Shown here: in pieces, positions 1 to 26,575 of the stretch | How positions within the stretch are numbered: the first letter of the stretch is position 1 | Layout: the number at the start of each line of letters is the position of its first letter | DNA from: a virus | DNA length: 27,580 bases | Virus record (IMG/VR): IMGVR_UViG_3300042544_002837 | Coordinates: 1-27,580 of that record | Direction: 5' to 3' (one strand) | The notes under the pieces: generated by a model | Seen by the model: only the letters and a program-made list of their open reading frames with translations | What the model was told of the DNA's origin: nothing | Databases searched by the model: none | Program-made: the position numbers and the translations under genes

Positions 1-3000
1 ACACTAACCGATTCTTTTAATTGATCAAAAGCAAAGTAAGGGTTTGCCTCATAACCACTATTATAACAAACCCATTTTTTTAAATCAGGCCTATCTGGAT
101 AGATATTTTTTGCAGATATTTCAAATAAATTATTATTTAAAACTTGAATCAATTCATTATCAACAAGATTAGTTCCTCTTGTTATTGCTATTGTGAATAT
201 TAAAGTTTTTAAAGATCTATCTAATGTTACGTTATCATTTATTAATACTTTTAAATCCTCAAACGTCATGGTTCCTCTTCTTATATCTTCTTCTGGTAAA
301 TTTTTGTATTTATCAGCAATAAATAATTGACATTGTTCGTTATCGTTTGGTTGTAGATTTTCTATTTCCGCAGCCCTTTCAGGATCTAATACCGTTGGAT
401 TTGTTTCTTCAATAACCGTGGAGCTACCGGCCTTTAAAATTTCTGATTTAAAGTTTTCTAAATAATTTATTTTAATAAATGTTGCTAAATTATCCGCCTG
501 AGGTAGTGCGTATTTTGGCATTCTTGAACCATCAAATGTTGTTGTAAATTTTCCCTGAGCTATACTATGTTTAACTTTGAAAATATAATATGGTCCGTAA
601 AATAGTGGAACATGTCTTAAATTAAAATACATCATTGGTTGGATCATAACATTACCAAGAGATGTGACTGTACAAGCATAACTCATCGACTTGTATAAAC
701 TATATAGTGATGTAGTCTGTTGAGCAATTTTGTCGGCATTCACCCCATTTGCCAATTGGTCGTTAACTAAAAATGTTGCGTTTGTTGGTTTTTTGTCGTT
801 CATACTAACATTTATACTTTCAAATATATTTTGGTTTCTTATACCAAAATCGACGTTAAACGCAACTACTTTATTTGACTTAGATAAATTTTGTTTATCC
901 GGTTCAATTCTAACAGGAACCGTTGTTGGATTTCTAAAATCAAAACTATCATTCGCATATAAAACAAAATCATTATCTTTACTTTCAGGTCTTTCAGATT
1001 CTTTACCGGCATACACACAAAGAAACTTAGGTCTAGAATCAATATAATTGACGTTTGTCCATGTCCCAAAAAGTGAGTTTGGTACATCAATGTTTATCGG
1101 ATTTGGTTTTTTTGTTGGGTTATTAACACCATAAAAATTTATGTAAGCTGGCATTGAAAAAAATAAAAGGTCTCCTGCGACTTTTAATATTGATCCAATA
1201 ATTAACAGAATGTCAGTTGCCGGGTCTGAGGTTTTAAGTATTTCTTTAACCGCAAATATATCAACCTGCAACTCATCACCTATATCATGATTTGCCGCGT
1301 CGTGAAACAAAAAGTCTTCAAAAATTGTCCTTGTTGTTAAATCACTTCCGGCAATCCATTTATCGTTGAAAGCTTGAAATGTGTTATATAAACTTAATTT
1401 ACTAATGTTACCATCTAAGGTTGATTTAGTATTTTTATTATTAATAGTTACGGTTGGTAAATTTTTATTTAAGTACGTAAAGACTTCAACAATACTGTCG
1501 TCTAATATTTTATTTTTTTCTAATAAGAAGTTTTCTAAGTCACTTATAAACTCCGTATTACCATATGTTTCATTATTAATTCGTTTTTTATTTTTTTGTG
1601 TTGAATATATTTTTATTAGTTTAGAATAAACTTCAACATTACTTTTATTGAATTCAATGTTATTATCTATAAAAAAGTCAAATATTGTTGACCCACTATC
1701 CTTATACTCCGAATAGTTTAATCCGGGGTTACTAGAGATTTCAAAAAATGAACCCACATTTAAATATAACGAGGTCCACGCCTCAGCGTTTTGCGTACTT
1801 AGTGTTTTACTTTGTAAAATTGACACATTAGATCCATCGCCAGGTAATGTTCCTTTTATATATCCAGCACCTGTTGGTAGTATTGGGTCTAATGGTTTTA
1901 ATATTGGGTTATTAGCCAAACTACCAAAAAGTCTTCTATCAAAATCTCCTGAATTTGCAATTTTTAATATCAAACTATAATCACAAAATGTTTTAATTTT
2001 TTGAGTTAAATTATATATTTGTTTTTGTGCTAATAATTCACCATCATTATTTTGTTGGTTTGTAAGAGTTAGTTCGCTCTCAGTTATAGTGAATAAATCT
2101 TTTAATACAAATTTTAATTGTTTTAAACCTGAATACCTTACTTTTTCAACAGTATTTTCATTTTGAATTAATGACTTTGTATTGGTAGTAGGATTTGGGT
2201 TACAAAATTCTAAAAATAAAGTCTCAAAATCATCTAATATTGATTTTTTAAATGGTGAATATATTCCACTTATTTTTTCATCCTCAAACCAACGGAAATA
2301 ATTAAGTTCTTCATTAATATCAGGTTTTGTTAGAGCACTATTATCAAAATACCCAAACTGTGAACATCCCCAAAAACTTCTAACCGTTCCGTTATAAACC
2401 GATGGGTTTTCTTTTATCTCTTGATTTAATTTTTTATCAACAGTAAAACATTCATAATTTGTTTGGTTAATAGGAATACCACCAGAAGACGGGATTACCA
2501 TATAGACTTTATTTGCAGGATCTATCAATGGGTCTTTATCAAAGATAAGGTATTCATAATATGAACTATTGATTATTGATCTGTTTAAGTTGTTAATATC
2601 TCCACTTTGAGCCATTATAAAATTAGCATTAGTGTTTGTACCTATTTTAATTTTATTATTATCAAATGGTTTTTTAACTTCTTGTTCTGTATAGTCATTA
2701 AATAGATCTTTTTTTGTAAAAAAGTATTGAAAGTCGTTAATTAATTTAGGGTAAAATCCATAATTAAAAATATCAAGTTCCTTATTGTTTGGTTGTATTT
2801 CGTTTCTATATGCCTTAAAAGTACTATCGTTTCCGTCGTAATTTTTAATTTCATACTGTTTGGTCAGATCATTGTTTATTGGGTCATAATATTTTTTGTA
2901 ATCAAAATCTTTCCAACAATTATCTAATATGTCAACACCTGTTGTGTGATATGTTTTGTATCTATGCCAAAAAGCTCCCATTTTTAATAAAAAAGAATAT

Positions 3001-6000
3001 GGAGCTTGGTGTATTGCTGAAAATTTTCTTATTGTCTCGTAAAAATTACCAACACTTTTTTCTTTATCATAATCCCATAATACCGGATATCTTAAATCTT
3101 CTATTGGTAAAGAATTAATAAAAAGATACCCAGTAGCAACGTAAGGGTTTGTTTCGTTATTTTTCTCTTTATCAACTCCATTTAAAATTGAATTAATAAA
3201 ATATGGGGTATTTAAATAACTTGTGGTTTGGTCCGCCCCTACATTTCCTAAGTATGTTGAACTATTATAGTATGTACTTACTTCAGTTACATATCTTTTT
3301 TTAACTTCATCATCATAAAATTTTTGTAAAGTTGTTAAATCTAAAATTTTATCAGTATTATTTCTTGTTAGTATTTTTAAATTTTGATTTGCAAATTGGG
3401 GTTTTTTACTAATGTCAAGTAATGTTATGTTTTTTATAGTTTCGGACTCATTTAATCTAGCTAATGTTTTTTTTTCGTCTAAAAAAATAAAAGTTTTTTC
3501 CGATAAGGAAAAATCATAACTATAATTAAATGTATCTAAAAAATTTAATACATTGTGTTCGGAACTTTTTAAATATTTGTTAAATTCTCCAATTAATGGG
3601 CTTGAGTTTTCTAATGATATTGATCTTCCGTCTATTTCTGATAAAGCATATATTCCATAATCTTTTTTTATTGAGTTATTAACATAATCAGTAACATATA
3701 AATCTCTTTCTTCTGAAGCCCAACTAGTTTTATCTATGTTTTTTAAAAAATCTTCAAACTGTTGTAGATTGAATTTAAAGTTTTTCATTTTTTCTTTTAA
3801 TGAAAAACTATCTTCGGAACCATATATAATATTTTTTGCCTCTAAATCTGCTAAAAATTTATCAACTTGGTTTGTCTTGTAGTTTCCTCTATAAAGATTT
3901 GTATAGTTCACTAAAGCATATAATCTTTCATATATTTCATAAAAGAAAGTCACTTCCGAAACATCTTCGTAAGGTAACGTTTCAAAAGGAAAATCTAAAG
4001 TATTACATGACCCAAATGGTGATTCGTTTTTATTATTTCTATATGATTGTCTTTTTACTGACTGAGCCCTTTTTGTTTGAGCGTTTATGTAATCTTCTAA
4101 AAATGCAACTTCAGGCCATGTGGTATAATCATAACCATTTGTTGAATCAATATATTTTGGGTCTCCTACATAATTAAGCATATATTTTTCTCTTCCGCTA
4201 GTATCATTAGGGTCTCTTTCCTTAGTGAAAAAAGTTGGCCAAGGGTAAACAATATTAACATCCGTTAAATTCCCATTAACAACGTTTTTAGAATCAATAC
4301 CAAAATTTTTGTCAGGTGGTATAATTGAAAAAAGTCTTTTTGGGTTTGTTCTTTGATTCCAAGCTTGGGTATGTGTTTTATCCATTAACCTATAAAAGGT
4401 GTCAACACCTGATAATAAAATTGCAAAAATATTTCTAATTGTTGGTTTAAACCCTAAACCCCCATCTTCAGAAATTATTTTATTTGCTAATAGGTTTGTA
4501 AAATCCTGCTCTATTTTTTCTTCTCTTGATTTTAGTTTTTTTAACCCATTATCTATATCATCTAAAAAACTATTAGCCAAATACTTACTCGTACTAAATT
4601 CAGTTTCACCAAATTTAAAATAAGTGGGTGTATCATCAACTAAATCTCCTGTTGCGTCGTCTATTTTTTTACTGAATATTTCAACATCTTGCAATGTATC
4701 CACTTTAAATTTAGCGACTTCTTGTTGTGTTGGTGTTCTACCTAATCTTTTTGCTAACGTATTTTCAAAGTCAGTATCGTTAAAAGCACTTATTGGTATT
4801 TGTTCAATAACATCTTTTGAATCTAATTTAACCACAATACTTTCCTTATATGTTGTTCCAGCAACTACGTATTCCGCATTATCACCAAAAGATTTATTCG
4901 CCTTTAAATTATTATTAGCATCATTTATTTCAGTTTCTATACCTGAAACAAGTTCCTTTCTTTTTGTATAATCAACCGTGTTTTTAAAAGTGTAAATTAT
5001 TTCACCTCTATAAAAAAAATAATTATTAAGATCTAAAAATTTGTTTTTAGGTATCGAATATACTTTTGATTTTATGTCAAGTAAAACTTCTCTGAATTTA
5101 GCAACGTCACTCAATACGGCAAAATCTCCTTTTTTTATTAGGTCTTGCATATTGGTTACAAACGTATCGGCCTTTTCAATAAAACCATCAATAGTTAACT
5201 CAGGAAAATCTTTATCAATTAAACCTTTTGCCTTATATGACTTGTAAACTTCTTTTAATGTTTGTTCACCAATAGATGAATCGATAATTTCTAAATTTGA
5301 ATTTTGTTGACCAGGAGCACTACTAACTGTTGATTGTTGTTGTAAAGTGGTTGGTGTCATTTTTGGTGCCGTCTTTGCATATGTCAATAAAGTGTCGGTC
5401 AATAATCCTGAATTTCTTCCAATAAAAGAAAGTGATATTTCGTAGTCACCTGTTCTTGCATTAAATGATGCATTAAACTTTGTTAAATTCAAAGCATATC
5501 TTATCGCCTTTCCATAATAACCTTTAAGTGTTAAATAAAATAAAGGGTAAGGTAAATTAAAAAACACCGAGTAGATTGATTTTTCTCCTTGTTCAAATAA
5601 TGTCCTACCTTGAATGTCTATTAAATTTATATTTACTTTCGTTGCGTTTATACCTGAAATATCAACTGTTATGTCTTTTATTCCTAACAACTGAGTGTCA
5701 TTATAATTAGTAACGTCTCTGTTAAAAATTATTTTTCCGTCTCTGTTTTGTTTTGTCTCTTTAGTTTGATTAAAACCGTTACCTTGTCTCGCACCGCTAC
5801 CAGTTAACTGGTCTGACCAACTAGTATCAAAAAAACGTTTTGTACCACTTAAACTATTTTCATTCGTATCTATTGGTTGTAAAAAATTAATTTTGGCTCC
5901 GTCTGATCTTCCGTTCAAAGAGGCTATTGATGAATTAATAACCGGACTATCAAATGATCCTCCAGTCGCTAATTTTGTTCTAGGTATTACTTTTGTTTCT

Positions 6001-6146
6001 AAATTCGCATAAAAAACTAAGTCTTCATGATCGACTAATCTATCTTTAACTTCATTATTAACAACAATCTTGTTAGGATCTATTAAGATAATGTTGTCAT
6101 AATCTGTTTCAACATATATTGATTTTTGGTTTAAACTATCTGCCAT
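1..6146 (-). CDS. giant baseplate hub-like protein (C-terminus outside window)
   Basis: An uninterrupted frame runs from an ATG at 6146-6144 to the left edge, about 2048 codons with no stop, so the true C-terminus is missing. The start (MADSLNQ) overlaps the stop of the upstream gene by 11 bases, which implies translational coupling. Near residues 155-260 lies a beta-rich section (LLGIKDITVDISG, then YPLFYLTLKGYYGKA) of a kind seen in large baseplate proteins. Near residues 1848-1876 (about 518-600) the text YYIFKVKHSIAQGKFTTTF resembles the C-terminal part of gp27/gpD-type baseplate hub proteins. The last ~110 visible residues include NNLFEISA and PYFAFDQLKESV, weakly like glucosaminidase/lysozyme-type domains, which could be a tail-associated cell-wall enzyme. 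The first gene in transcription order after the gp53-like gene fits a baseplate role. The hub assignment is inferred from short motifs and position; the size is far beyond T4 hub proteins. Confidence 0.6.
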   Translation of the reverse strand, partial: MADSLNQKSIYVETDYDNIILIDPNKIVVNNEVKDRLVDHEDLVFYANLETKVIPRTKLATGGSFDSPVINSSIASLNGRSDGAKINFLQPIDTNENSLSGTKRFFDTSWSDQLTGSGARQGNGFNQTKETKQNRDGKIIFNRDVTNYNDTQLLGIKDITVDISGINATKVNINLIDIQGRTLFEQGEKSIYSVFFNLPYPLFYLTLKGYYGKAIRYALNLTKFNASFNARTGDYEISLSFIGRNSGLLTDTLLTYAKTAPKMTPTTLQQQSTVSSAPGQQNSNLEIIDSSIGEQTLKEVYKSYKAKGLIDKDFPELTIDGFIEKADTFVTNMQDLIKKGDFAVLSDVAKFREVLLDIKSKVYSIPKNKFLDLNNYFFYRGEIIYTFKNTVDYTKRKELVSGIETEINDANNNLKANKSFGDNAEYVVAGTTYKESIVVKLDSKDVIEQIPISAFNDTDFENTLAKRLGRTPTQQEVAKFKVDTLQDVEIFSKKIDDATGDLVDDTPTYFKFGETEFSTSKYLANSFLDDIDNGLKKLKSREEKIEQDFTNLLANKIISEDGGLGFKPTIRNIFAILLSGVDTFYRLMDKTHTQAWNQRTNPKRLFSIIPPDKNFGIDSKNVVNGNLTDVNIVYPWPTFFTKERDPNDTSGREKYMLNYVGDPKYIDSTNGYDYTTWPEVAFLEDYINAQTKRAQSVKRQSYRNNKNESPFGSCNTLDFPFETLPYEDVSEVTFFYEIYERLYALVNYTNLYRGNYKTNQVDKFLADLEAKNIIYGSEDSFSLKEKMKNFKFNLQQFEDFLKNIDKTSWASEERDLYVTDYVNNSIKKDYGIYALSEIDGRSISLENSSPLIGEFNKYLKSSEHNVLNFLDTFNYSYDFSLSEKTFIFLDEKKTLARLNESETIKNITLLDISKKPQFANQNLKILTRNNTDKILDLTTLQKFYDDEVKKRYVTEVSTYYNSSTYLGNVGADQTTSYLNTPYFINSILNGVDKEKNNETNPYVATGYLFINSLPIEDLRYPVLWDYDKEKSVGNFYETIRKFSAIHQAPYSFLLKMGAFWHRYKTYHTTGVDILDNCWKDFDYKKYYDPINNDLTKQYEIKNYDGNDSTFKAYRNEIQPNNKELDIFNYGFYPKLINDFQYFFTKKDLFNDYTEQEVKKPFDNNKIKIGTNTNANFIMAQSGDINNLNRSIINSSYYEYLIFDKDPLIDPANKVYMVIPSSGGIPINQTNYECFTVDKKLNQEIKENPSVYNGTVRSFWGCSQFGYFDNSALTKPDINEELNYFRWFEDEKISGIYSPFKKSILDDFETLFLEFCNPNPTTNTKSLIQNENTVEKVRYSGLKQLKFVLKDLFTITESELTLTNQQNNDGELLAQKQIYNLTQKIKTFCDYSLILKIANSGDFDRRLFGSLANNPILKPLDPILPTGAGYIKGTLPGDGSNVSILQSKTLSTQNAEAWTSLYLNVGSFFEISSNPGLNYSEYKDSGSTIFDFFIDNNIEFNKSNVEVYSKLIKIYSTQKNKKRINNETYGNTEFISDLENFLLEKNKILDDSIVEVFTYLNKNLPTVTINNKNTKSTLDGNISKLSLYNTFQAFNDKWIAGSDLTTRTIFEDFLFHDAANHDIGDELQVDIFAVKEILKTSDPATDILLIIGSILKVAGDLLFFSMPAYINFYGVNNPTKKPNPINIDVPNSLFGTWTNVNYIDSRPKFLCVYAGKESERPESKDNDFVLYANDSFDFRNPTTVPVRIEPDKQNLSKSNKVVAFNVDFGIRNQNIFESINVSMNDKKPTNATFLVNDQLANGVNADKIAQQTTSLYSLYKSMSYACTVTSLGNVMIQPMMYFNLRHVPLFYGPYYIFKVKHSIAQGKFTTTFDGSRMPKYALPQADNLATFIKINYLENFKSEILKAGSSTVIEETNPTVLDPERAAEIENLQPNDNEQCQLFIADKYKNLPEEDIRRGTMTFEDLKVLINDNVTLDRSLKTLIFTIAITRGTNLVDNELIQVLNNNLFEISAKNIYPDRPDLKKWVCYNSGYEANPYFAFDQLKESVS

Positions 6147-6454: not shown

Positions 6455-9400
6455 TTAGTTCATTTTTTTCTTTAAATTATATTTATTCGTATTTGAATCA
6501 ACCGTTGACCAAACATTTTTCAAATTATCACTATCTGTTTGATTTGTTGTTAATTGTTTAGAATAATCTAAAACTCTGGTTTTATCTTTAGAGAAAGGGT
6601 CATAAATTTCATTAGGAAGTAAATCATTTAAATAATCATTCTTAAAATCCTCAAACTTTTTGTTTAGAGTATCTTTAGATCTTTTGAAGTCCTTTACAAG
6701 ACCACCTAATGGTTTTTGTGTATAACCGTTTACCGTTTTATAAAAACCTAAATTATTATATATAAAGTCTTTCCAAAGATTATAATCGGAAGAAAGTAAA
6801 TTCCCGTCAGTGGCGGCAGACGCAAGTGCATCAACAAAGGTATCTGGATTCAAAATGATTTGTGTTCCAAATAACATAAAAAATACATTCGTTGCTGGCG
6901 GCACTTCTTCTTCTAAATCTTCTTTTAAATATAATTGCATTTTAAAATCATCATTATACGTTAAAGTATCTCCGGTAGGAACAATTCCATACTCATTTAA
7001 TTTTTGTACAAATCTATTTAGATCATTACCAACTTTAAATAGGTCTGTTTTTAATTCATCATATGTATTTGTAGCCCCTTCTGTTTTACCTGATAAATCA
7101 TATATAATAGAAGACCCCCTTTTTGTTTCATAACCATCTCTTTTATTTATAACAAAATTAAGTTGGTCTGACAAAGCAATATATTTTAATTCTTCTTGAA
7201 TAATGTTTGTTTGTGCACTATCTAAAAAACTAATATATGGGTCCTTCTTTTCGTTAATCAATTCTTTAAGTTTTCTTTTAACTCTCCTCTTTTGGTTTGC
7301 ATTAAAGTTTTTTTCATCAACTTGAGCTAAAGGTGGTGTTAATAAATCATCAACATCTTGTTTTGCCCTTCGTATTAAATCATCTACTTTATTTTGATAT
7401 GATTCCGGTTTTCCTATAATTTTTGTTAAAAGACTATTAGTGTCTCCGCTCAAATAATCAAATAAACCTTCTTGATATTTTCTGTCTTTAGTGTACACTA
7501 ACAATCCTCCCATATTAAGGTATTCTCTTAGTATGTTTAAATTAGAATATACAGAATTAAAGTATGCCCCAGTTGATGCGACAAACTCATTCATTTTTGT
7601 TTGGTACTCAACAGTTCCTGTTATCGCACTTGTTTGAATATCTAGATTAGATGATTTTATATTACCAATAGTATTACCTTTACCTGAACCTTGTGGTTTA
7701 TCTTGTGGATCAATTAATCCAACATCATTTTTAATGATATCAAGAACTTCAGAATCAAACTGAGATAATATAGGGTCTGTTACTGTTGCCCTTTCATCAT
7801 ACATTTCAGTATTTGCATAATAATTAAATGAAAGTGCGTTTTGTAACTCAGCAACGGGATTTGACATTCCATGTCCTCCTATAAAACTAAACCCAATACT
7901 TACAGTTGCAAACATCGGTTGGACTCCAATACCTTCAGGGTTTAAATCAAACTTACCTTCATCATATTTTAAAGTTAATGTTTCCGGAATTATTTTTGTG
8001 TGATAGAAGTCACCAACCCTTAAAACTAAAACAGGTGGTGTACCAAAAGCACTATTGAAAACGTCGTTATATTGGAATTGTGTTTGTCCTCCACTTTCAA
8101 CCGCCGTAGGGATTGTATCTCCCGGTCTAAAACATTGATTTAAAAATGTTAATCTTGCATTTAAACCTTCGGGTGTTATTGAATGAAATGCCGGTTGGAA
8201 GTTTTTAATTTTACTTTTGATTCCATCATATATCATAGGATTAGTTTCCTTGATCATTTCAAAGTAATTACATTCGGTCAAAAGTTTTCTTAAAAGTCTT
8301 TTGGTTAAATCTTTTCTTTTATTCAAAGTAGTGTCTTTAACAGTTGTTTGAGTAATTTCTTTTACGGTAACCGCTTGTGATTGTGTGTTTGTTGTGTTAT
8401 TATTTTCTGCCGCGTTTGTTTGTGCTGGTTGTCCTTCAATTTCTTTTCTTTTTTCCTCTTCTGTTTTTTTCTTTTTTTCTTCTTTTACTGGTGTAATTTT
8501 AACTTTAGTGACAGTAACTCTTCTACACAACATCGCCTGCATAGATCCCTTACCGTCTCTATTACTATTTAAGAAGTCTTTTGAACAATCAATACTAGAG
8601 TACTTATCCGTTTTTAATTTTGATTCTTTTCCTTCTGTTTTTTTATTTATTTTTAATTTTTTATCAATAAAATCTGAAAGTTTATTTTCATTATCACCAA
8701 ATTCCAAAATTTGTTTATAAACAGAATCAATTCTTCTATCTGACAATTTTTTGTTATAGGATACTCCACCATTAGCATTTGCTGATGCAATTAAAGAAAA
8801 CTCAACTTCAGATCCACTTTTTAAAACTTTTAATATTTTTTCTAAAAACTCTTGAAAATCAGAATACTCTTGTTGTAGTTCTTGTATGATTTCATTAGCC
8901 ACTGATGGTTTTGCAATAATCCATTTATCGGCAAGTTCTTTGATGGGTGGTGAATCAGGTAGTGTAACCTTAATATTGTTTTTATTTGCATAATTTATGT
9001 AAAAACCATCAGATGTGTTTGAATATGTTACACTATTTGGATATTCACTACTATTAGTAAGTAATTCATTATAATAAGTTTCATAAATACTATCACTTTC
9101 AGATGTTTCGCCTAAAGGTATTGATTGAGGAAACAATAAAATCATTTCTTCAAATTTAGAATCTTTTTCTTTACTATTTAATTCTTTTACTATTTCTTCA
9201 GTTTCACTATTTGTATCTTCTTCTTTTGTTTCTATCTTAGCATTTGTTGATACTTTTACTTCACCTTGTATTTGTGTTGGTGGTAAAAATTTTGTGTACT
9301 CTCTAACCTCATCTACCGTTCTAAATGATTCAACAACCTCATAAATATCGGAGTAACTAAACATTGGGTATTTTTTAAGGAGGTCTACCAAATCATATTT

Positions 9401-12262
9401 TAAACATCCGGCAAACAAAGAGTCAATAACCTTAGTGGCTAAAGATTCTTCAGTTTTTTCTAATTCTTTATTTACGACAACATTCAATACCGATGGGTGG
9501 TCTACAAGAATTTTAAAACTAATATTACCTTTTCTAGTTGTTTTAGTATAAGTCCAAACAGGTTCCGTCCTACCAAGGAAAGTGGTGTCATTCCAATTGG
9601 CAGTGGACGAATCATCAAAAGAAAGGTCATACGGAGGAAACCACATTATTCTTCCACCATTAGGTCCTATCTCACACGCAGGTAAGTCTTCAACTCTATA
9701 TCCATTTCTACTTGATGTTCTCCACGCTAAGTTTTCGATAGAAAACATATATTTTTTAACTCTACCTGCAATTATGTTAGAAGAGTCCTCACCATGCATT
9801 GGTGCAATATTTAAATTATAGGTGTTAGTTAGTACCGAACTAGTGTTACCATATCCTCTAATATTACCGTCAGTTTTTTGTAGTTCGTTGTATGAATAAT
9901 AAGGTCTATCTTTTGTAAACAATCTACAATATTCATAACCAACAACATCTTTAACTTCACCACCTGAACTTTGACCCGCAGCGGTTGGTGTTAAAAATCT
10001 TCTGGCTCTTGATCCTTTGGTAATTTCTTGATACCCATCAAAAAATACTTTTGATACTTGGTTAATTGCATTTCCAACGTGTTCTAATTTACTTGCAGAT
10101 CCCACACTACCAGCATCGATTAGTCTTTGTGTGACATCCAAAATTGAACCTGGAGTTAGTTTTACATCTGAAGATTTTGTTTGATTAAAAGTGGATTCAA
10201 AACCTGAACCAAACACACTATCGATTGAAAAGTTTTGTAGGTTTCCTGTCTTTGCATTTTTAGGTCCAACTAATCGACCCGGATCTATGTAGTTCTTTTT
10301 AGCAATCCAAGTGAAACCTCCTTGTATACCGACCTTATCATAAAAGGCACGAGCATTTAAACCGAAAAGTTTTTGATTTATTAATTTACCTTCATAGTCT
10401 TGACCAATTCTACCATAACTATAAACAGGACCAACTACGGGATTTCCTTTATTATCTTTAGGTAAATCGGTTTTTGGACTAACTAAATCTCTAATATAAT
10501 TTTTACTTTTTCCAATATAAAAATTCCCATTTGGGGCACTTAGATTTGGACTGGCGGCAGAACTTAATTTGTATTGTGGTCTATATTCATTATACCACAA
10601 CATATCAAATAGTATGCTTTTTGTTGCGTTTGAGGTATTTAACAATAATGTTTCTGAACCGGTATCAATATTTGGTGTTAGGATTTTTGTTGCTAAGTTT
10701 GTTGCTAAGTTTGCCAATCCACCAATAGGGTTTGATATTGCTTGAGATAATATGTTTTTTTGTGGATAATCAAAATATTCGCCAGGTATAAGTGAATAAG
10801 GAGAATAAAGTCCAGCCAATCTTGCAGTAAAACTAACCGCCGATCCAATTATTCCACCAACCGAAGTTATTTTAAAGTCTCTTTGTATTAATGGTACGTT
10901 ATTAGTTAAAACACCTAACGCATCAAAAGGGTCAGGTTTTAATTCAGTTGAGACTCCGCCTGAGTTAGGATCAACAGTTGTTTGTGATGGTATTGTCCTT
11001 CCTATTGTTTGTTGTAATAATTCAAAAGCAACTCTTGCCTTAAATTCTTTTTGTAGTTGTTTGGCTCCTAATTTTGCCAAATCCGAATCTTGACTTAATG
11101 AACCTTCAGACCCTCTAACATTATTTAAATCATCTTGTGATAAAATGTTTATTGGGCTATAGTCTGAAGGAATAAAAATAAATGTCGTATCACTATTATA
11201 ATAAGGGTCGTTTAAATTTTCAAACGAATAATCTTCAACCGTTAAAGCATCAAAAGAACCCTCACCACTGTTATATTTATTTTTTGCATAAAAAAATGTT
11301 TGTGACTGAGATGTTGTTAAATTTGGTGAAGATGATTCATATTCAAATTCTCCTTGATTCGCTTTAGTTTGAAAGTTTAAATTGGGGTCGATAAATATAC
11401 CATAGCCGTTTGGAATATCTTCAGGTCCATAAACGTTAGAAAGATACGCAATTTTTTGAGATTGTTCTGTTGTTCTATTTGGTGATGACGCCAAATATAA
11501 AAAGGGACCTGAATTAGGTTTTGTTTGTTTGTTTACGTTTGGTTCAACCTCAAAACCAAAACCACCTCTTGGTCCAAAGAAATTTGCAATATATGCATTA
11601 GTTCTAGATTGTTCTGTTGAAATTTCAGGTCCGTTAGACACATAAGTATATTCGCCTAATCTTATACCAATACTTTCTAAATCAAAAGTTACAACATCAC
11701 CAAAACCATTTGCGGTTTTAGTTGGTCCATATTTGTTTAATACTCTTAAAAACTTTTCAAGTTCGTTACCTTTTTTTTCTAAATCACTATTAATACTATC
11801 AGGATATCCATAATTCCCTTCATTCGCCTTTGTTTGTTTATTAACATTAGGGTTTACCGTATTTTGGTTTTCTCCGTTGTCTTTAGAATATTGATTTTTA
11901 ACCAGTTGTTCTTTTTCGGTTCGTTTACCAAAAATTTCTAAAGGGGAACTAACACTTTGCGTAAATGAATAATTACCAAAGTTTGTTTGTGTTCCTAAAT
12001 TTTTATTTATATTAATTATATTACCAAAGTCACCATCCAAAGGGGTGTACTTATTTAAACCAATTAATCTTGGCTCTTGTATATTGGATTCTAACTCAAT
12101 AGAAGGTGAGTCAATAACCGAATAATCGATAATCGAAACTTCTGTATTTTTTTTAGAGTCGTTTCCTTGATAAAACCCTTCAACACCATACGGTCTAAGG
12201 TTTCTAAGAAGTAACTTCTTTCTAAAGTTTTCTGACGAATTGAATGATAATGGGCTTTCCAT
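6455..12262 (-). CDS. giant multidomain baseplate protein with N-terminal repeats and OmpA-like insert
   Basis: A 1935-residue virion protein, probably baseplate, lying between the tape measure and the gp53-like gene. Residues ~86-332 hold about five diverged ~50-residue repeats built on N.N.QTK.N.G, then SSPN.TTEQSQ..AY..N.YGP. Residues ~820-925 form a structural core (WFPPYDLSFDD, then W..TTFLGRTEPVWTY). Residues ~1085-1258 resemble an OmpA-like peptidoglycan-binding fold: a beta strand (EFSLIASANANGG), then YNKKLSDRRIDSVYKQI and a closing strand RRVTVTKV. A Lys/Glu/Gln/Asn-rich linker follows (1260-1305). Residues ~1376-1480 (PPVLVLRVGDFYHTKIIPE, then FSFIGGHGMSNP) look like a gp48/gp54-type or tube-initiator-like beta domain. 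The C-terminal ~400 residues are charged and helical. The start at 12262 lies 28 bases after the tape-measure stop and 13 bases after a TATTTATA box. Exact baseplate equivalence is unknown. Confidence 0.65.
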   Translation of the reverse strand: MESPLSFNSSENFRKKLLLRNLRPYGVEGFYQGNDSKKNTEVSIIDYSVIDSPSIELESNIQEPRLIGLNKYTPLDGDFGNIININKNLGTQTNFGNYSFTQSVSSPLEIFGKRTEKEQLVKNQYSKDNGENQNTVNPNVNKQTKANEGNYGYPDSINSDLEKKGNELEKFLRVLNKYGPTKTANGFGDVVTFDLESIGIRLGEYTYVSNGPEISTEQSRTNAYIANFFGPRGGFGFEVEPNVNKQTKPNSGPFLYLASSPNRTTEQSQKIAYLSNVYGPEDIPNGYGIFIDPNLNFQTKANQGEFEYESSSPNLTTSQSQTFFYAKNKYNSGEGSFDALTVEDYSFENLNDPYYNSDTTFIFIPSDYSPINILSQDDLNNVRGSEGSLSQDSDLAKLGAKQLQKEFKARVAFELLQQTIGRTIPSQTTVDPNSGGVSTELKPDPFDALGVLTNNVPLIQRDFKITSVGGIIGSAVSFTARLAGLYSPYSLIPGEYFDYPQKNILSQAISNPIGGLANLATNLATKILTPNIDTGSETLLLNTSNATKSILFDMLWYNEYRPQYKLSSAASPNLSAPNGNFYIGKSKNYIRDLVSPKTDLPKDNKGNPVVGPVYSYGRIGQDYEGKLINQKLFGLNARAFYDKVGIQGGFTWIAKKNYIDPGRLVGPKNAKTGNLQNFSIDSVFGSGFESTFNQTKSSDVKLTPGSILDVTQRLIDAGSVGSASKLEHVGNAINQVSKVFFDGYQEITKGSRARRFLTPTAAGQSSGGEVKDVVGYEYCRLFTKDRPYYSYNELQKTDGNIRGYGNTSSVLTNTYNLNIAPMHGEDSSNIIAGRVKKYMFSIENLAWRTSSRNGYRVEDLPACEIGPNGGRIMWFPPYDLSFDDSSTANWNDTTFLGRTEPVWTYTKTTRKGNISFKILVDHPSVLNVVVNKELEKTEESLATKVIDSLFAGCLKYDLVDLLKKYPMFSYSDIYEVVESFRTVDEVREYTKFLPPTQIQGEVKVSTNAKIETKEEDTNSETEEIVKELNSKEKDSKFEEMILLFPQSIPLGETSESDSIYETYYNELLTNSSEYPNSVTYSNTSDGFYINYANKNNIKVTLPDSPPIKELADKWIIAKPSVANEIIQELQQEYSDFQEFLEKILKVLKSGSEVEFSLIASANANGGVSYNKKLSDRRIDSVYKQILEFGDNENKLSDFIDKKLKINKKTEGKESKLKTDKYSSIDCSKDFLNSNRDGKGSMQAMLCRRVTVTKVKITPVKEEKKKKTEEEKRKEIEGQPAQTNAAENNNTTNTQSQAVTVKEITQTTVKDTTLNKRKDLTKRLLRKLLTECNYFEMIKETNPMIYDGIKSKIKNFQPAFHSITPEGLNARLTFLNQCFRPGDTIPTAVESGGQTQFQYNDVFNSAFGTPPVLVLRVGDFYHTKIIPETLTLKYDEGKFDLNPEGIGVQPMFATVSIGFSFIGGHGMSNPVAELQNALSFNYYANTEMYDERATVTDPILSQFDSEVLDIIKNDVGLIDPQDKPQGSGKGNTIGNIKSSNLDIQTSAITGTVEYQTKMNEFVASTGAYFNSVYSNLNILREYLNMGGLLVYTKDRKYQEGLFDYLSGDTNSLLTKIIGKPESYQNKVDDLIRRAKQDVDDLLTPPLAQVDEKNFNANQKRRVKRKLKELINEKKDPYISFLDSAQTNIIQEELKYIALSDQLNFVINKRDGYETKRGSSIIYDLSGKTEGATNTYDELKTDLFKVGNDLNRFVQKLNEYGIVPTGDTLTYNDDFKMQLYLKEDLEEEVPPATNVFFMLFGTQIILNPDTFVDALASAATDGNLLSSDYNLWKDFIYNNLGFYKTVNGYTQKPLGGLVKDFKRSKDTLNKKFEDFKNDYLNDLLPNEIYDPFSKDKTRVLDYSKQLTTNQTDSDNLKNVWSTVDSNTNKYNLKKKMN
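11267..12007 (-). repeat. tandem protein repeats (about five units of ~50 residues)
   Basis: Within the 1935-residue protein, residues ~86-332 repeat a unit whose best copies begin at residues 139 (NVNKQTKANEG), 242 (NVNKQTKPNSG) and 294 (NLNFQTKANQG), each followed by an aromatic stretch, SSPN.TTEQSQ and a terminal N.YGP. Two weaker copies precede or interleave (about residues 86-127 and 199-231). The repetition is visible at protein level and is diverged at DNA level. Confidence 0.7.
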
Positions 12263-15787: not shown

Positions 15788-15795
15788 TATAAATA
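15788..15795 (-). promoter_or_regulatory. TATTTATA box upstream of the tail tube gene
   Basis: In gene orientation the box lies 31 bases before the ATG; the leader between them is almost entirely A and T/C-poor. The box lies in the gap after the HAD-like gene (15757-15860), which otherwise shows only A/T-rich sequence. Confidence 0.5.
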
Positions 15796-20219: not shown

Positions 20220-20227
20220 TATAAATA
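20220..20227 (-). promoter_or_regulatory. TATTTATA box upstream of the sheath gene
   Basis: In gene orientation the box ends 30 bases before the sheath ATG. A second, variant copy TATTTATT lies about 42 bases further upstream (20262-20269). The 135-base stretch 20190-20324 holds nothing else that I can recognise beyond these and the box for the opposing small gene. Confidence 0.5.
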
Positions 20228-22564: not shown

Positions 22565-24328
22565 ATGGAAGAATTAATTTCAAAAACACCTGAAACAAGG
22601 GCCCTTCAAATGTTAGATGATTATGTTGGGTCAAATAACTATATCTTGTCATTAAAAAACAAAAAACAAAATAGTAAGTCTTTTACACCAACAAGATCTC
22701 AAGCCGAATACATAATTAACTTTCACGGACGAACACCAAAGGTGGCAAAAAAATGGGTCAAGTTAGATTCATATTTTGGAAAAAAAATGATGGAAGATAA
22801 GATGTACACAAAAGAACCAACGGAAATATATGTTGAAAAACTTTTGGTAGAAAAAGACAAATCATATCATATATGGGGTAAGATATTTAGTGGTGAAACT
22901 ATACATGATTTTTGGATTCCAAAAACTGCACTTATTAAAGATAATGAGGTAAAAAATGTTGTTATTGAATATTCAAAATATGATCACAGGGCTCCAATGG
23001 ATCATCAAAAAGAGGCGATTGAAAAACTTGTTAGAAACAAAAAGTTTATTTTAGCCGATGACATGGGACTTGGTAAAACAACCTCAACAATTATTTCGGC
23101 ATTAGAAACGGGAGCAAAAAAAATATTAATTGTTTGTCCAGCATCTTTAAAAATAAATTGGCAACGTGAAATTGAAAATTATTCAGATAGAACTGTTTAT
23201 ATTGCAGAAGGTAAAAAATTTTCAACTGAATCTGATTTTGTTATAATAAATTATGACATATTAAAAAACTTTCATGACCCAAAAAAGAAAGATGAATCAA
23301 TAATTTTAAATTCTAATTTTGATTTGGTTATTATGGACGAAGCCCACATGATATCAAACCCACAAGCACAAAGAACAAAAATTGTAAATGATTTATGTGG
23401 TAAAGTTGAAAGAGTTTGGTTATTAACAGGAACCCCGATGACTTCAAGACCAATGAATTATTATAATCTTTTAAGTTTAGTTGAAAGTCCAGTGGCTGCA
23501 AATTGGATGGCGTATGCTAAAAGATACTGTAATGGATTTCAATTTAGTGTCGGTAAAAGAAAGATATGGAATGTAACAGGGGCATCTAATTTAGATGAGT
23601 TAAGAGAAAGAACACAAACCCACATTTTAAGAAGATTAAAAGAAGACGTATTAGATTTACCCGATAAAATTATTACTCCTGTTTATTTAAGATTAAAATC
23701 AAAAGACTACGAAGAATTAATGGGTGAATACTTTAATTGGTATGACAACAACTCAGAAGAGTCGTCATCTTTAACCATTCAGTTTGGAAAACTGATGAAA
23801 GTTAGAAAGGTGATTGCTGAAGAAAAAGTTAAAAATACAATTGAATTGGCTGAAAATATTATCGAACAAGGAAAAAAAGTTATAATATTTACAAATTTTA
23901 CAGACACCTTACGTACAATTTATGATCATTTTGGAAAACAAGCGGTTTATTTAGATGGGTCTTGTTCAAAACCTCATCGACAAAAAGCGGTAGACGACTT
24001 TCAAGAAAATGATAAAATTAAAGTCTTTGTTGGTAATTTAAAGGCTGCTGGTGTCGGTATTACTTTAACTTCTGCAGAAGCCGTTATCATGAATGATTTA
24101 TCTTTTGTTCCTGCAGAACACGCACAAGCAGAAGATAGATCACATAGAATAGGTCAAAAAAATTCCACATCAGTTTATTACCCACTATTTGAAAATACAA
24201 TCGAAGGTGCCATATATGATATTCTAAATAGAAAGAAAAAAATCATATCGACTGTTATGGGTGATGACATGATGGAAGATGCTTCAGCAATTGAAGAAAT
24301 GTTAAATTTAATTTCTTCTAAAAGGTGA
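22565..24328 (+). CDS. SNF2-family (SMARCAL1-like) DNA helicase/translocase
   Basis: A 587-residue superfamily 2 enzyme. Walker A DDMGLGKTT is at residues 165-173, DEAH at 258-261, motif III LLTGTPM at 286-292, the SNF2-typical RRLKEDV at 356-362, motif V AAGVGITLT at 494-502 and motif VI AEDRSHRIGQ at 522-531. The DEAH box with 'HRIGQ' and the short form without large insertions point to the SMARCAL1/HARP-like group, which remodels forks and anneals strands; T4 UvsW has a related role. Residues 1-135 form an extra beta-rich N-terminal region that may contact DNA. It is an early- or middle-type function in the midst of late structural genes, first in a plus-strand unit with the SOD fusion and neck gene. 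No Shine-Dalgarno precedes the ATG. Confidence 0.9.
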   Translation: MEELISKTPETRALQMLDDYVGSNNYILSLKNKKQNSKSFTPTRSQAEYIINFHGRTPKVAKKWVKLDSYFGKKMMEDKMYTKEPTEIYVEKLLVEKDKSYHIWGKIFSGETIHDFWIPKTALIKDNEVKNVVIEYSKYDHRAPMDHQKEAIEKLVRNKKFILADDMGLGKTTSTIISALETGAKKILIVCPASLKINWQREIENYSDRTVYIAEGKKFSTESDFVIINYDILKNFHDPKKKDESIILNSNFDLVIMDEAHMISNPQAQRTKIVNDLCGKVERVWLLTGTPMTSRPMNYYNLLSLVESPVAANWMAYAKRYCNGFQFSVGKRKIWNVTGASNLDELRERTQTHILRRLKEDVLDLPDKIITPVYLRLKSKDYEELMGEYFNWYDNNSEESSSLTIQFGKLMKVRKVIAEEKVKNTIELAENIIEQGKKVIIFTNFTDTLRTIYDHFGKQAVYLDGSCSKPHRQKAVDDFQENDKIKVFVGNLKAAGVGITLTSAEAVIMNDLSFVPAEHAQAEDRSHRIGQKNSTSVYYPLFENTIEGAIYDILNRKKKIISTVMGDDMMEDASAIEEMLNLISSKR

Positions 24329-24336
24329 TATTTATA
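24329..24336 (+). promoter_or_regulatory. TATTTATA box upstream of the peptidase-SOD fusion gene
   Basis: The box lies in the 12-base gap between the helicase stop and the ATG at 24341, ending 4 bases before the ATG. Confidence 0.4.
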
Positions 24337-24340
24337 TATC

Positions 24341-25429
24341 ATGGATACAGAAATAATATACCCTGACGGAATTTCAAAAGAACAAAAAAAATTAGTTGAA
24401 AAATTTATAGATTTTTTAAAAAAAGAATATCCTTTAAAGGATGACTTGAAAGTTGATTTCTTGACAAAAAGAACCGGCACAATGACAACAGGTAGTAGGA
24501 CCGACAATCATAGATTAAAAATATTAGTAAAAGATAGATTAAATCGAGACATACTAAGAACATTAGCTCATGAATGGGCACATGAGTATCAAAGAAGAGT
24601 GTTAAAAAGAAAAAAAGGCCATAATATTGGTGGTAAAAATGAAGATGAGGCAAACGCAATTGCGGGTGAAATAATGAAAAAATTTGAAAAAAGTAATAAG
24701 TCTTCAATACCTAGAATATATAAAATGTTCACCGAACAAATTAATAATTTAGAATTATTACTACAAGTAGAATCTTTTAATAGTAAACAAATTATTTCTG
24801 AAATAAAAAAAGTATCAATAGAAAAATTGCCATACGAATTTGATGATTTAGAAGACTTTATTGATAGTGAAACAATGAAAACTCACTACACAAAACACTA
24901 CAAAGGTTACGTTGAAAAGTTAAACAAAGAGTTAGAAAAAATTAAAGGGAAAGATTTAGATTTAGAAGAAATAGTATCGGGAATATCTAAATTCAACACA
25001 AAAGTAAGAAACAACGGTGGTGGGGCATTTAATCACGCATTATTTTGGAAAATGTTATCACCAAAAAAAACTAAGTTAGAAAATCCTTTACTATATAAGT
25101 TAGAGTCATCTTTTGGATCATTTGAAAAATTTAAAGAGAAATTTGAAGAGGAAGCAAAATCAAGATTTGGATCAGGATGGGTTTGGTTAGTGTTGACAAA
25201 AGCGAATAGATTAAAAATAGTAACAACACCAAATCAAGATAATCCTTTAATGATGTCAGGAAAAAACAAATCATATCCATTGTTGGGGTTAGATTTATGG
25301 GAACACGCATATTATTTAAAATATAAAAACGAAAGAGATAGGTATATCCATAATTTTTGGAAAGTAGTTAATTGGGATTTTGTCTCCGATTTATATACAA
25401 CTCAAGTAGAAAGAAATAAAGCAACATAG
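24341..25429 (+). CDS. HExxH metallopeptidase-like domain fused to Fe/Mn superoxide dismutase
   Basis: A 362-residue two-domain protein. Residues ~1-118 carry LAHEWAHEYQRR, a zinc-peptidase HExxH (His77, Glu78, His81), with a possible third ligand in the helix NEDEANAIAGE (Glu101, 103 or 110), as in ImmA/IrrE- or SprT-like folds. A linker (~119-160) follows. Residues ~163-358 are a full superoxide dismutase: LPYEFDDLEDFID, THYTKHYKGYV (ligand His182; His186 and gateway Tyr190), AFNHALFW (His232), FGSGWVWLV, PNQD (Gln299) and LDLWEHAYYLKY (Asp318, His322). All four metal ligands are present. Gln in NQD and the GGG before the second ligand favour manganese-type chemistry. The SOD would detoxify superoxide in the infected cell; the peptidase substrate is unknown. 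An internal ATG (residue 129) could give a SOD-only product. It sits between helicase and neck genes. Domain calls are strong; the joint role is inference. Confidence 0.92.
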   Translation: MDTEIIYPDGISKEQKKLVEKFIDFLKKEYPLKDDLKVDFLTKRTGTMTTGSRTDNHRLKILVKDRLNRDILRTLAHEWAHEYQRRVLKRKKGHNIGGKNEDEANAIAGEIMKKFEKSNKSSIPRIYKMFTEQINNLELLLQVESFNSKQIISEIKKVSIEKLPYEFDDLEDFIDSETMKTHYTKHYKGYVEKLNKELEKIKGKDLDLEEIVSGISKFNTKVRNNGGGAFNHALFWKMLSPKKTKLENPLLYKLESSFGSFEKFKEKFEEEAKSRFGSGWVWLVLTKANRLKIVTTPNQDNPLMMSGKNKSYPLLGLDLWEHAYYLKYKNERDRYIHNFWKVVNWDFVSDLYTTQVERNKAT

Positions 25430-25434
25430 TAAGA

Positions 25435-25442
25435 TATTTATA
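25435..25442 (+). promoter_or_regulatory. TATTTATA box upstream of the gp13-like gene
   Basis: The box lies in the 27-base gap after the SOD fusion gene, ending 14 bases before the ATG at 25457. Confidence 0.5.
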
Positions 25443-25456
25443 TAAAAAATATTCTT

Positions 25457-26575
25457 ATGTCAACATCTATAATTACAGAACCTCATAGAAGTAAACTTTA
25501 TAAGAGAATTAGAAATCTTTTGGGTGCACCTTTAAGAGGTGTTGAGTTAGAAGATGAAATGATGGATTCTCTTTTAGAGTTATCAATTCAGGATTATTCA
25601 CAACACGTTAATGATTGGTTAATAGAAACACAATGGTCATCACTTTATGGATTGAATCTTGATGAGCAATCTTTAACTAAAGCATTTACAACAAGGAGTT
25701 TAGATTGGGAAACTCAATACACTTATGCATATTCTAAAATTGTTGGTTTACAAGCCGGTGGAGATTATGTTTTAGAAAAAGATTATATTGAATTAGTACC
25801 AAATCAACAAATATATGAAATACCTGCAGGTAGAGAGGTAAACGAATTATTATGGTTTGCTCGTTCTGAATTGGATGCTGCCTACTTCGATCCATTCATG
25901 GGTGGATTTGGTGGATTTGGTGGTATTGGTCTTGGTGGTGGTGCTGGATTTTCTCAGATGGGAACAACAGGTAACTATTTTATTACACCTGCATTTGATA
26001 TTTTATTAAGAATGCAAGACATTCAAATGAAAAGAAGAATCATTACTGGTGACTTAACATACAGAATAACCGCACTTCCTGAAGGAAAAAAAGCAATTCA
26101 TTTGTACAACGTTCCTGGCGGTAAGTTTGATTTTGGTAATATGAAAAGAAACGATTATAAAGTTTGGTATTGGTATTACAATACGTTTGATAGAGATGAT
26201 TGTTTAGCAAAAAATCCTGATGTAGTTAGGTTACCTTCAGATATTCCAATCGATGAAACAAGATGGGATGAATTAAATTCACCGGCACAAACTTGGGTTA
26301 GAAGATGGTTTACTGCATATTGTAAAGAAACATTAGCAAAAGTAAGAGGTAAATATAGTGGCAATTTAAAGACACCTGATAGCGAATTAACCCTTGAATG
26401 GCAATCTCTAAATACTGAAGCAAAAGACGAAAAAAGTATATTGTGGGAAGAATTAAAAACAAGACTTGAAAGGTTAAGACCTGAAAAACAGTGGGAAATA
26501 AAAGGGGCTATGGCTGAAAATATGAATAAAGCATTAAAATACAGACCATTTACAAGCCCATATAATGTTATATAA
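25457..26575 (+). CDS. 13: neck protein (gp13-like head completion)
   Basis: A 372-residue protein matching T4 gp13-type head-completion/neck proteins (T4 gp13 is 309 residues). The N-terminal helical part has LYKRIRNLLGAPLRGVELED (about residues 14-33) and SIQDYSQHVNDWLIE; the conserved C-terminal part has FTAYCKETLAKVRGKYSG (285-302) and a following LTLEWQSLNTEAKDE. gp13 binds the portal after DNA packaging and makes the joining surface for the tail with gp14. A glycine/phenylalanine-rich loop at residues 148-168 (MGGFGGFGGIGLGGGAG) interrupts the middle and is unlike T4. The gene is on the plus strand, whereas its usual partners gp14 and gp15 are on the minus strand more than 3 kb away, with the helicase, SOD fusion and acidic protein genes between. 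The frame ends just before the 26582 gene. Confidence 0.85.
   Translation: MSTSIITEPHRSKLYKRIRNLLGAPLRGVELEDEMMDSLLELSIQDYSQHVNDWLIETQWSSLYGLNLDEQSLTKAFTTRSLDWETQYTYAYSKIVGLQAGGDYVLEKDYIELVPNQQIYEIPAGREVNELLWFARSELDAAYFDPFMGGFGGFGGIGLGGGAGFSQMGTTGNYFITPAFDILLRMQDIQMKRRIITGDLTYRITALPEGKKAIHLYNVPGGKFDFGNMKRNDYKVWYWYYNTFDRDDCLAKNPDVVRLPSDIPIDETRWDELNSPAQTWVRRWFTAYCKETLAKVRGKYSGNLKTPDSELTLEWQSLNTEAKDEKSILWEELKTRLERLRPEKQWEIKGAMAENMNKALKYRPFTSPYNVI

Follow-up and report, generated by a model that had tools for sequence, protein, structure and literature searches.

The open reading frame (ORF) described here lies on the plus strand at positions 24341–25429 of a 27,580-nucleotide stretch of viral DNA (IMG/VR record IMGVR_UViG_3300042544_002837; hereafter the window), and all coordinates within it given below refer to this strand. 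It encodes a protein of 362 amino acids, in which Pfam matches and a family alignment distinguish an HExxH domain, a linker and a Mn/Fe superoxide dismutase (SOD). A preliminary description made from the window sequence had these coordinates exactly right. It also placed the gene inside a phage structural cluster, whereas the gene is at the edge of that cluster, between an SNF2/UvsW-like helicase gene (phrog_62; 22565–24328, plus strand) upstream and a neck protein gene (25457–26575, plus strand) downstream, whose product has a C-terminal match to the head-tail adaptor phrog_211. The motif TATTTATA (24329–24336), a putative late promoter common to most window genes, stands directly 5' of the start codon. 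The minus strand of the window carries two very large ORFs at 3–6146 (at least 2048 amino acids) and 6455–12262 (1935 amino acids). In several relatives, the helicase gene upstream of this slot is interrupted by in-frame, stop-free insertions of 1.04–1.13 kb (L003 5688–6737, L006 5904–6941, L033 1374–2504 and L064 5534–6664), located in Walker A (GLGK/TT, the slash marking the insertion point) in L003, L033 and L064 and after LIADE in L006. These insertions had no match in Rfam and look like inteins.

The N-terminal domain (residues 1–118; 24341–24694) contains the motif HEWAH (residues 77–81; 24569–24583). In the alignment of 33 family sequences, H77, E78, W79, H81 and E101 were invariant; the earlier description had named HEWAH and a conserved acidic helix here. 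E101 (24641–24643), within NEDEAN, is the probable third metal ligand, judging from HExxH...E peptidases. No Pfam family matched residues 1–118 above threshold; DUF6055 and SprT-like (PF10263, 13.8 bits against a cut-off of 25.6) appeared below it. Peptidase M78 (ImmA/IrrE, PF06114) did not match the window protein and scored 15–21 bits with relatives (cut-off 22), and MPTase-PolyVal (PF18818) likewise did not match the window protein and reached 14.4 bits with one relative (cut-off 27.5). Searching the sequences of solved structures with this domain gave nothing significant. Predicted alone with AF2, the domain had a pLDDT of 91 (90.9 before rounding), and its model matched zincin folds with Z of about 10–11, among them ERAP2 (Z 10.8), a YbeY homologue (metallohydrolase, 10.3), M30 lugdulysin (9.9) and Wss1 (9.8). 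The ERAP2-type matches are M1 aminopeptidase catalytic domains, and the viral matches include proteins named IrrE-like. Structure prediction could have contradicted the proposed peptidase fold and instead returned it. With an HExxH helix, a downstream Glu and a zincin fold in the model, we classify this part as a zincin (gluzincin-like) domain.

In the C-terminal part, Sod_Fe_N (PF00081) matched residues 160–240 (E 2.5e-23, 82.8 bits, cut-off 27) and Sod_Fe_C (PF02777) residues 249–349 (E 1.7e-40, 137.6 bits, cut-off 20.9), both above the curated Pfam cut-offs and in the expected order. The four metal ligands named in the preliminary description, H182 (24884–24886), H232 (25034–25036), D318 and H322 (the last two within LDLWEHAYY, ligand span 25292–25306), were in place and invariant across the 33 sequences, as were the gateway Y190 and the Mn-type Q299. 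The ligands aligned with those of S. aureus SodA, and comparison of the domain with solved Mn-SODs gave Z 26.5. The SOD ligands thereby withstood the refutation that the preliminary description had set for them. Judged by these residues and matches, this part is a complete Mn-type SOD domain. Both domains were under purifying selection and the linker was relaxed in most pairs, many of the dS values being near saturation.

The peptidase-like domain and SOD were found in one ORF in 75 of the best 80 IMG/VR relatives, which came from many samples, and the fused gene occupied the same slot between the helicase and neck genes; the family thus comprises at least 75 IMG/VR contigs with the two-domain order. 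Among the 80 loci encoding the HExxH domain, 79 also encoded SOD, and the remaining locus is incomplete, ending at the contig end. The idea that two separate genes were merged by an error of assembly (a case that the preliminary description had raised itself) or of gene calling is scarcely conceivable and is already refuted, since these contigs carry the fusion in a single frame with the same neighbours. The isolated phages searched had either SOD or the HExxH part by itself and never the fusion, and our scan of cellular genomes likewise returned SODs only, the best of them mostly from Bacteroidota with 43–51% identity. A cellular origin of the whole fusion was rejected because no cellular genome scanned carries it. 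Phage records whose SOD matches resembled bacterial sequence (e.g. OR850395 and AGRM01000004) were left out. The open-access literature searched does not describe the fusion. The preliminary description knew of no parallel in T4-like phages; the fusion is real and recurrent, and it is shared by a widespread lineage, a large family of freshwater T4-like phages, that includes relatives with further fused modules. The hosts are probably freshwater Bacteroidota.

The two domains are connected by a helical linker of low predicted confidence (residues 119–154, 24695–24802; pLDDT below 50 at 140–149), which is a candidate capsid-targeting and processing segment. Residues 117–157 drift among relatives, yet E154 and K156 are unchanging, and position 152 is always I, L or V next to a free position 153 ([ILV]-x-E154; 33 of 33 aligned sequences, 49 of 49 distinct linkers). 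The ISE site noticed earlier (I152-S153-E154, 24794–24802) is real and turned out to be the most informative feature. The internal ATG at residue 129, also suggested as a means of making a separate SOD, encodes a Met that is kept in only 3 of 33 relatives, and an internal start at this position was dropped. In T4, cleavage by the prohead protease gp21 occurs behind the motif L/I-x-E (PMC9026906); the linker site fits this motif, and a cut after E154 is predicted. Since the window, a 27.6-kb fragment, has neither a gp21-type protease nor gp23, evidence for the protease was taken from relatives: a gp21-type protease (PF03420) was present in 6 and gp23 (PF07068) in 7 of 15 related contigs. The gp23 precursors of these contigs read ...SFLINE/ATSET... 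or ...SHLINE/AASTD... (here and below, the slash follows the glutamate), where LINE/A is the predicted maturation site by analogy with the cut in T4 gp23, which lies some 65 residues in. The same LINE letters precede the SOD as LINE/IKK in L043, L060 and L061. The gene beside gp23 (L184 9383, L185 3440, L186 12249, L187 4158, L188 4144) encodes a protein whose divergent N-terminal peptide terminates in [LI]xE, with a conserved start of the TSTxTGSRGSY type after it; this is likely a further processed head protein.

The density of [LIV]xE was 6.2 per 100 amino acids in linkers, 0.9 in the N-domain and 1.2 in the SOD, i.e. 5–7 times higher in linkers than in the domains. The linkers contained 136 such motifs, compared with 85.6 ± 7.4 in shuffled linkers, counts that overstate independence because the sequences are related; the linkers are also rich in L, I and E. 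In the same genomes, the scaffold protein gp22 had a density of about 3–4 and a gp68-like core protein 4.6–7.4, and most other large structural proteins had about 1. In the linker of the window protein itself, one consensus site is present. The predicted cut after E154 would yield a mature SOD of residues 155–362 (24803–25426) with 8 residues ahead of LPY, as in free cellular SODs, which typically have 6–8; several cellular SODs have leader peptides ahead of LPY, and a site of the [LIV]xE type ahead of the SOD was found in 0 of 38 cellular SODs. Five relatives (L043, L051, L058, L060 and L061) are SOD-only forms of 238–239 amino acids with a short N-terminal extension; the HExxH domain was not found in their available sequence, and all five retain the linker as their N-terminus. 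Compared with shuffles, the resemblance of the fusion linker to this N-terminus had z of about 3–7 in most pairs and below 2 in several pairs with L060. Taken together, the conservation of the linker, its site, the position of the SOD start and the likeness to the SOD-only forms suggest that this segment is a targeting and processing leader of the SOD and not a mere spacer.

The window ORF itself begins with MDTEIIYPDGISKEQ and not with a short N-terminal capsid-targeting sequence, so that its candidate segment is internal; in the SOD-only relatives the corresponding segment is N-terminal. We know of no experimental precedent for an internal capsid-targeting sequence. Several small proteins (L186 5508–6086, L186 13668–14147) start with KK.[IV].[LV]TE.DL.RI[IV]K[RS]V[LM][NK]E, and the lineage may thus possess capsid-targeting leaders of a second kind. 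When a further signature resembling a capsid-targeting sequence was looked for as a DNA pattern, it occurred at 3 sites in 15 contigs, which is too few to use.

In many of the more distant relatives (from L044 on), the chain continues past the SOD: NDLF..KKK is followed by [LI]xE/S and then by an additional module. At least three mutually unrelated C-terminal modules occur behind this additional [LI]xE; those of L046 and L071, for example, belong to proteins that share sequence up to KKKL[NS]ES, where the similarity ends. One module type was seen in this fusion only (18 of 18 loci). No reliable match to the modules was found in Pfam or PHROGs. In the module of L064, a GQD...QVK pattern is reminiscent of PD-(D/E)xK nucleases, which we regard as a lead only.

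The sequence TATTTAT was present within 50 nucleotides upstream of 10 of the 15 window genes (0.86 expected; none of 500 shuffles reached 10) and in 53 of 54 distinct regions upstream of the slot gene. On the coding strand of the window, TATTTAT(A) occurs for example at 15788–15795, 20220–20227, 24329–24336 and 25435–25442. The genes that it precedes in relatives include those for sheath, scaffold, protease and neck proteins, and it was not found ahead of the DNA polymerase genes examined there. The T4 late promoter TATAAATA was considered and rejected, as it was not enriched over chance and coding strands bear TATTTAT instead. We infer that TATTTAT is probably a late promoter element distinct from the T4 TATAAATA.

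Relatives of the HExxH domain that stand alone or are fused differently include gp332 of cyanophage B23, starting MNYKQFLRE/S..., and many IMG/VR proteins. Their N-termini often have a T4-like appearance (MKFKEFLTE/S, MRFREFLNE, MLKFKQYLKE, MLTFKQYIAE/Q, MISFKDFIKE/E); for comparison, T4 IPII and IPIII start with MKTYQEFIAE/A. A strict capsid-targeting pattern matched 14 of 59 HExxH relatives versus 28 of 605 other ORFs, or 18 of 63 versus 24 of 601 after four mis-sorted ORFs had been moved; several of the pattern-positive other ORFs are scaffold proteins or carriers of such leaders. The HExxH relative of S-SRM01 lacks a leader. Thus, a leader resembling a capsid-targeting sequence appears to be common, not universal, on HExxH relatives. 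In L279, L282 and L283, the HExxH domain lies behind a nucleotidyltransferase-like domain (YPGKFKPPHAGHF) in proteins that start with a leader of this kind and have N-termini such as MNIGREIVQELIE, possibly another packaged two-enzyme chain. Pseudomonas phage Callisto (PA5oct-like; L342 735–1283) has a SOD that starts with MNDSIKKYISIAEAASS, similar to a T4 capsid-targeting sequence, and that might also be packaged.

We consider it likely that the protein is a late internal-head (ejection) precursor that is split by a gp21-like protease and delivers SOD and peptidase together with the DNA. It would be synthesized late, alongside the structural proteins, and drawn into the prohead core with the linker helix as the targeting element. 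The gp21-like prohead protease of the phage would then cut after E154, freeing the HExxH zinc-peptidase (residues 1–154) and a Mn-type SOD with a normal N-terminus (residues 155–362). Both products would share the head with the DNA and reach the host cell when infection begins, where the SOD would remove superoxide at time zero, ahead of any phage gene expression. The peptidase would probably cut a host defence or regulatory protein, as we guess from where domains of this kind occur. Packaging, cleavage, injection, the enzyme activities and the biological roles are proposed on the basis of features read from sequences: two domains with intact active-site residues, an invariant site, its identity with the predicted capsid-protein site, module exchange at such sites and a shared upstream motif.

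Among the nearest parallels are the T4 internal head proteins IPI–III and Alt, a variable cargo, which are targeted to the head, cut after L/I-x-E and ejected with the DNA (PMC9026906), and enzymes fused behind T4 IPIII or its targeting sequence were packaged and delivered (PMC9026906). In T4, the targeting peptides are N-terminal and 10–19 residues long and none of the internal proteins is a SOD, whereas the site in the present protein separates one enzyme domain from the other. Long N-terminal parts of gp50, gp53 and gp54, ejection proteins of the giant phage SPN3US, are also removed by its prohead protease (PMC5694885), although these propeptides are not known as enzymes and the cleavage motif is A-x-E. 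A precedent for a SOD in a virus particle is the Cu/Zn SOD A245R of chlorovirus PBCV-1, the product of a late gene, which is packaged in the virion and thought to lower superoxide during infection (PMC7019647); that enzyme is a single-domain protein of an algal virus, whereas the present one is of the Mn/Fe type, has an unrelated fold and belongs to a tailed phage. The stand-alone SODs of PA5oct-like Wroclawvirus and Vibrio phage 2.275.O share the Fe/Mn SOD fold but are only 25–26% identical and have a single domain and no peptidase.

The preliminary description had offered two explanations for the fusion, detoxification linked to proteolysis and the delivery of an enzyme to the virion or to the cell. 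Delivery is favoured because of the invariant protease-type site, the late-type motif, the linker N-termini of the SOD-only forms and the leaders of the HExxH relatives; a link between detoxification and proteolysis is less likely, given that the protein seems to be designed for cutting between its domains. An ordinary intracellular bifunctional SOD-peptidase that lowers oxidative stress late in infection, with the linker as a spacer and [LI]xE as incidental, would fit the occurrence of single auxiliary SOD genes in other phages and the Bacteroidota SODs as likely donors. We regard it as unlikely, since it leaves unexplained why E154 is invariant beside a free residue, why the site matches that of the capsid protein and is absent from cellular SODs (0/38), why SOD-only forms keep the linker and why modules are exchanged at such sites.

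The HExxH domain might instead cut the linker itself, before or after injection, in a chain resembling the polyvalent proteins. In these proteins, a zincin-like MPTase is fused to other enzyme domains, as in the present chain, the whole is thought to be injected, and autoprocessing has been proposed for the zincin, their commonest domain; superoxide dismutase is not mentioned among their domains (PMC5512222). The N-terminal position of the HExxH domain in the two- and three-domain chains found here agrees with such self-cleavage. Nevertheless, SOD-only relatives without HExxH retain the conserved site, which indicates recognition by an outside protease, and relatives possess a protease of the gp21 type; separation is apparently a task of the prohead protease, and we judge autoproteolysis to be improbable. 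The present chain also differs from polyvalent proteins in that its domain scores below the PF18818 threshold. The fixed place beside the neck gene and the shared late-type motif would also be expected of a structural or neck/tail-associated virion component that is neither cleaved nor injected, but both active sites are conserved and SOD-only and extended forms freely replace each other at the slot, so that such a role seems very improbable.

Returning to the internal-head precursor, we see roughly even chances for a broader scheme, in which the prohead protease processes a modular multi-enzyme precursor (peptidase and SOD, with one of several additional modules in relatives) into co-packaged, injected enzymes, the slot serves as an exchange site for takeover or anti-defence cargo, and superoxide removal is among the first acts of infection. 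If this is true, head-protease sites would serve to link several enzymes in a single chain and to set them free, and their sequence rule ([LI]xE junctions and capsid-targeting N-termini) could be used to find injected proteins of uncultured T4-like phages. A SOD that enters the cell ahead of any gene expression would point to superoxide as an immediate threat in infection.
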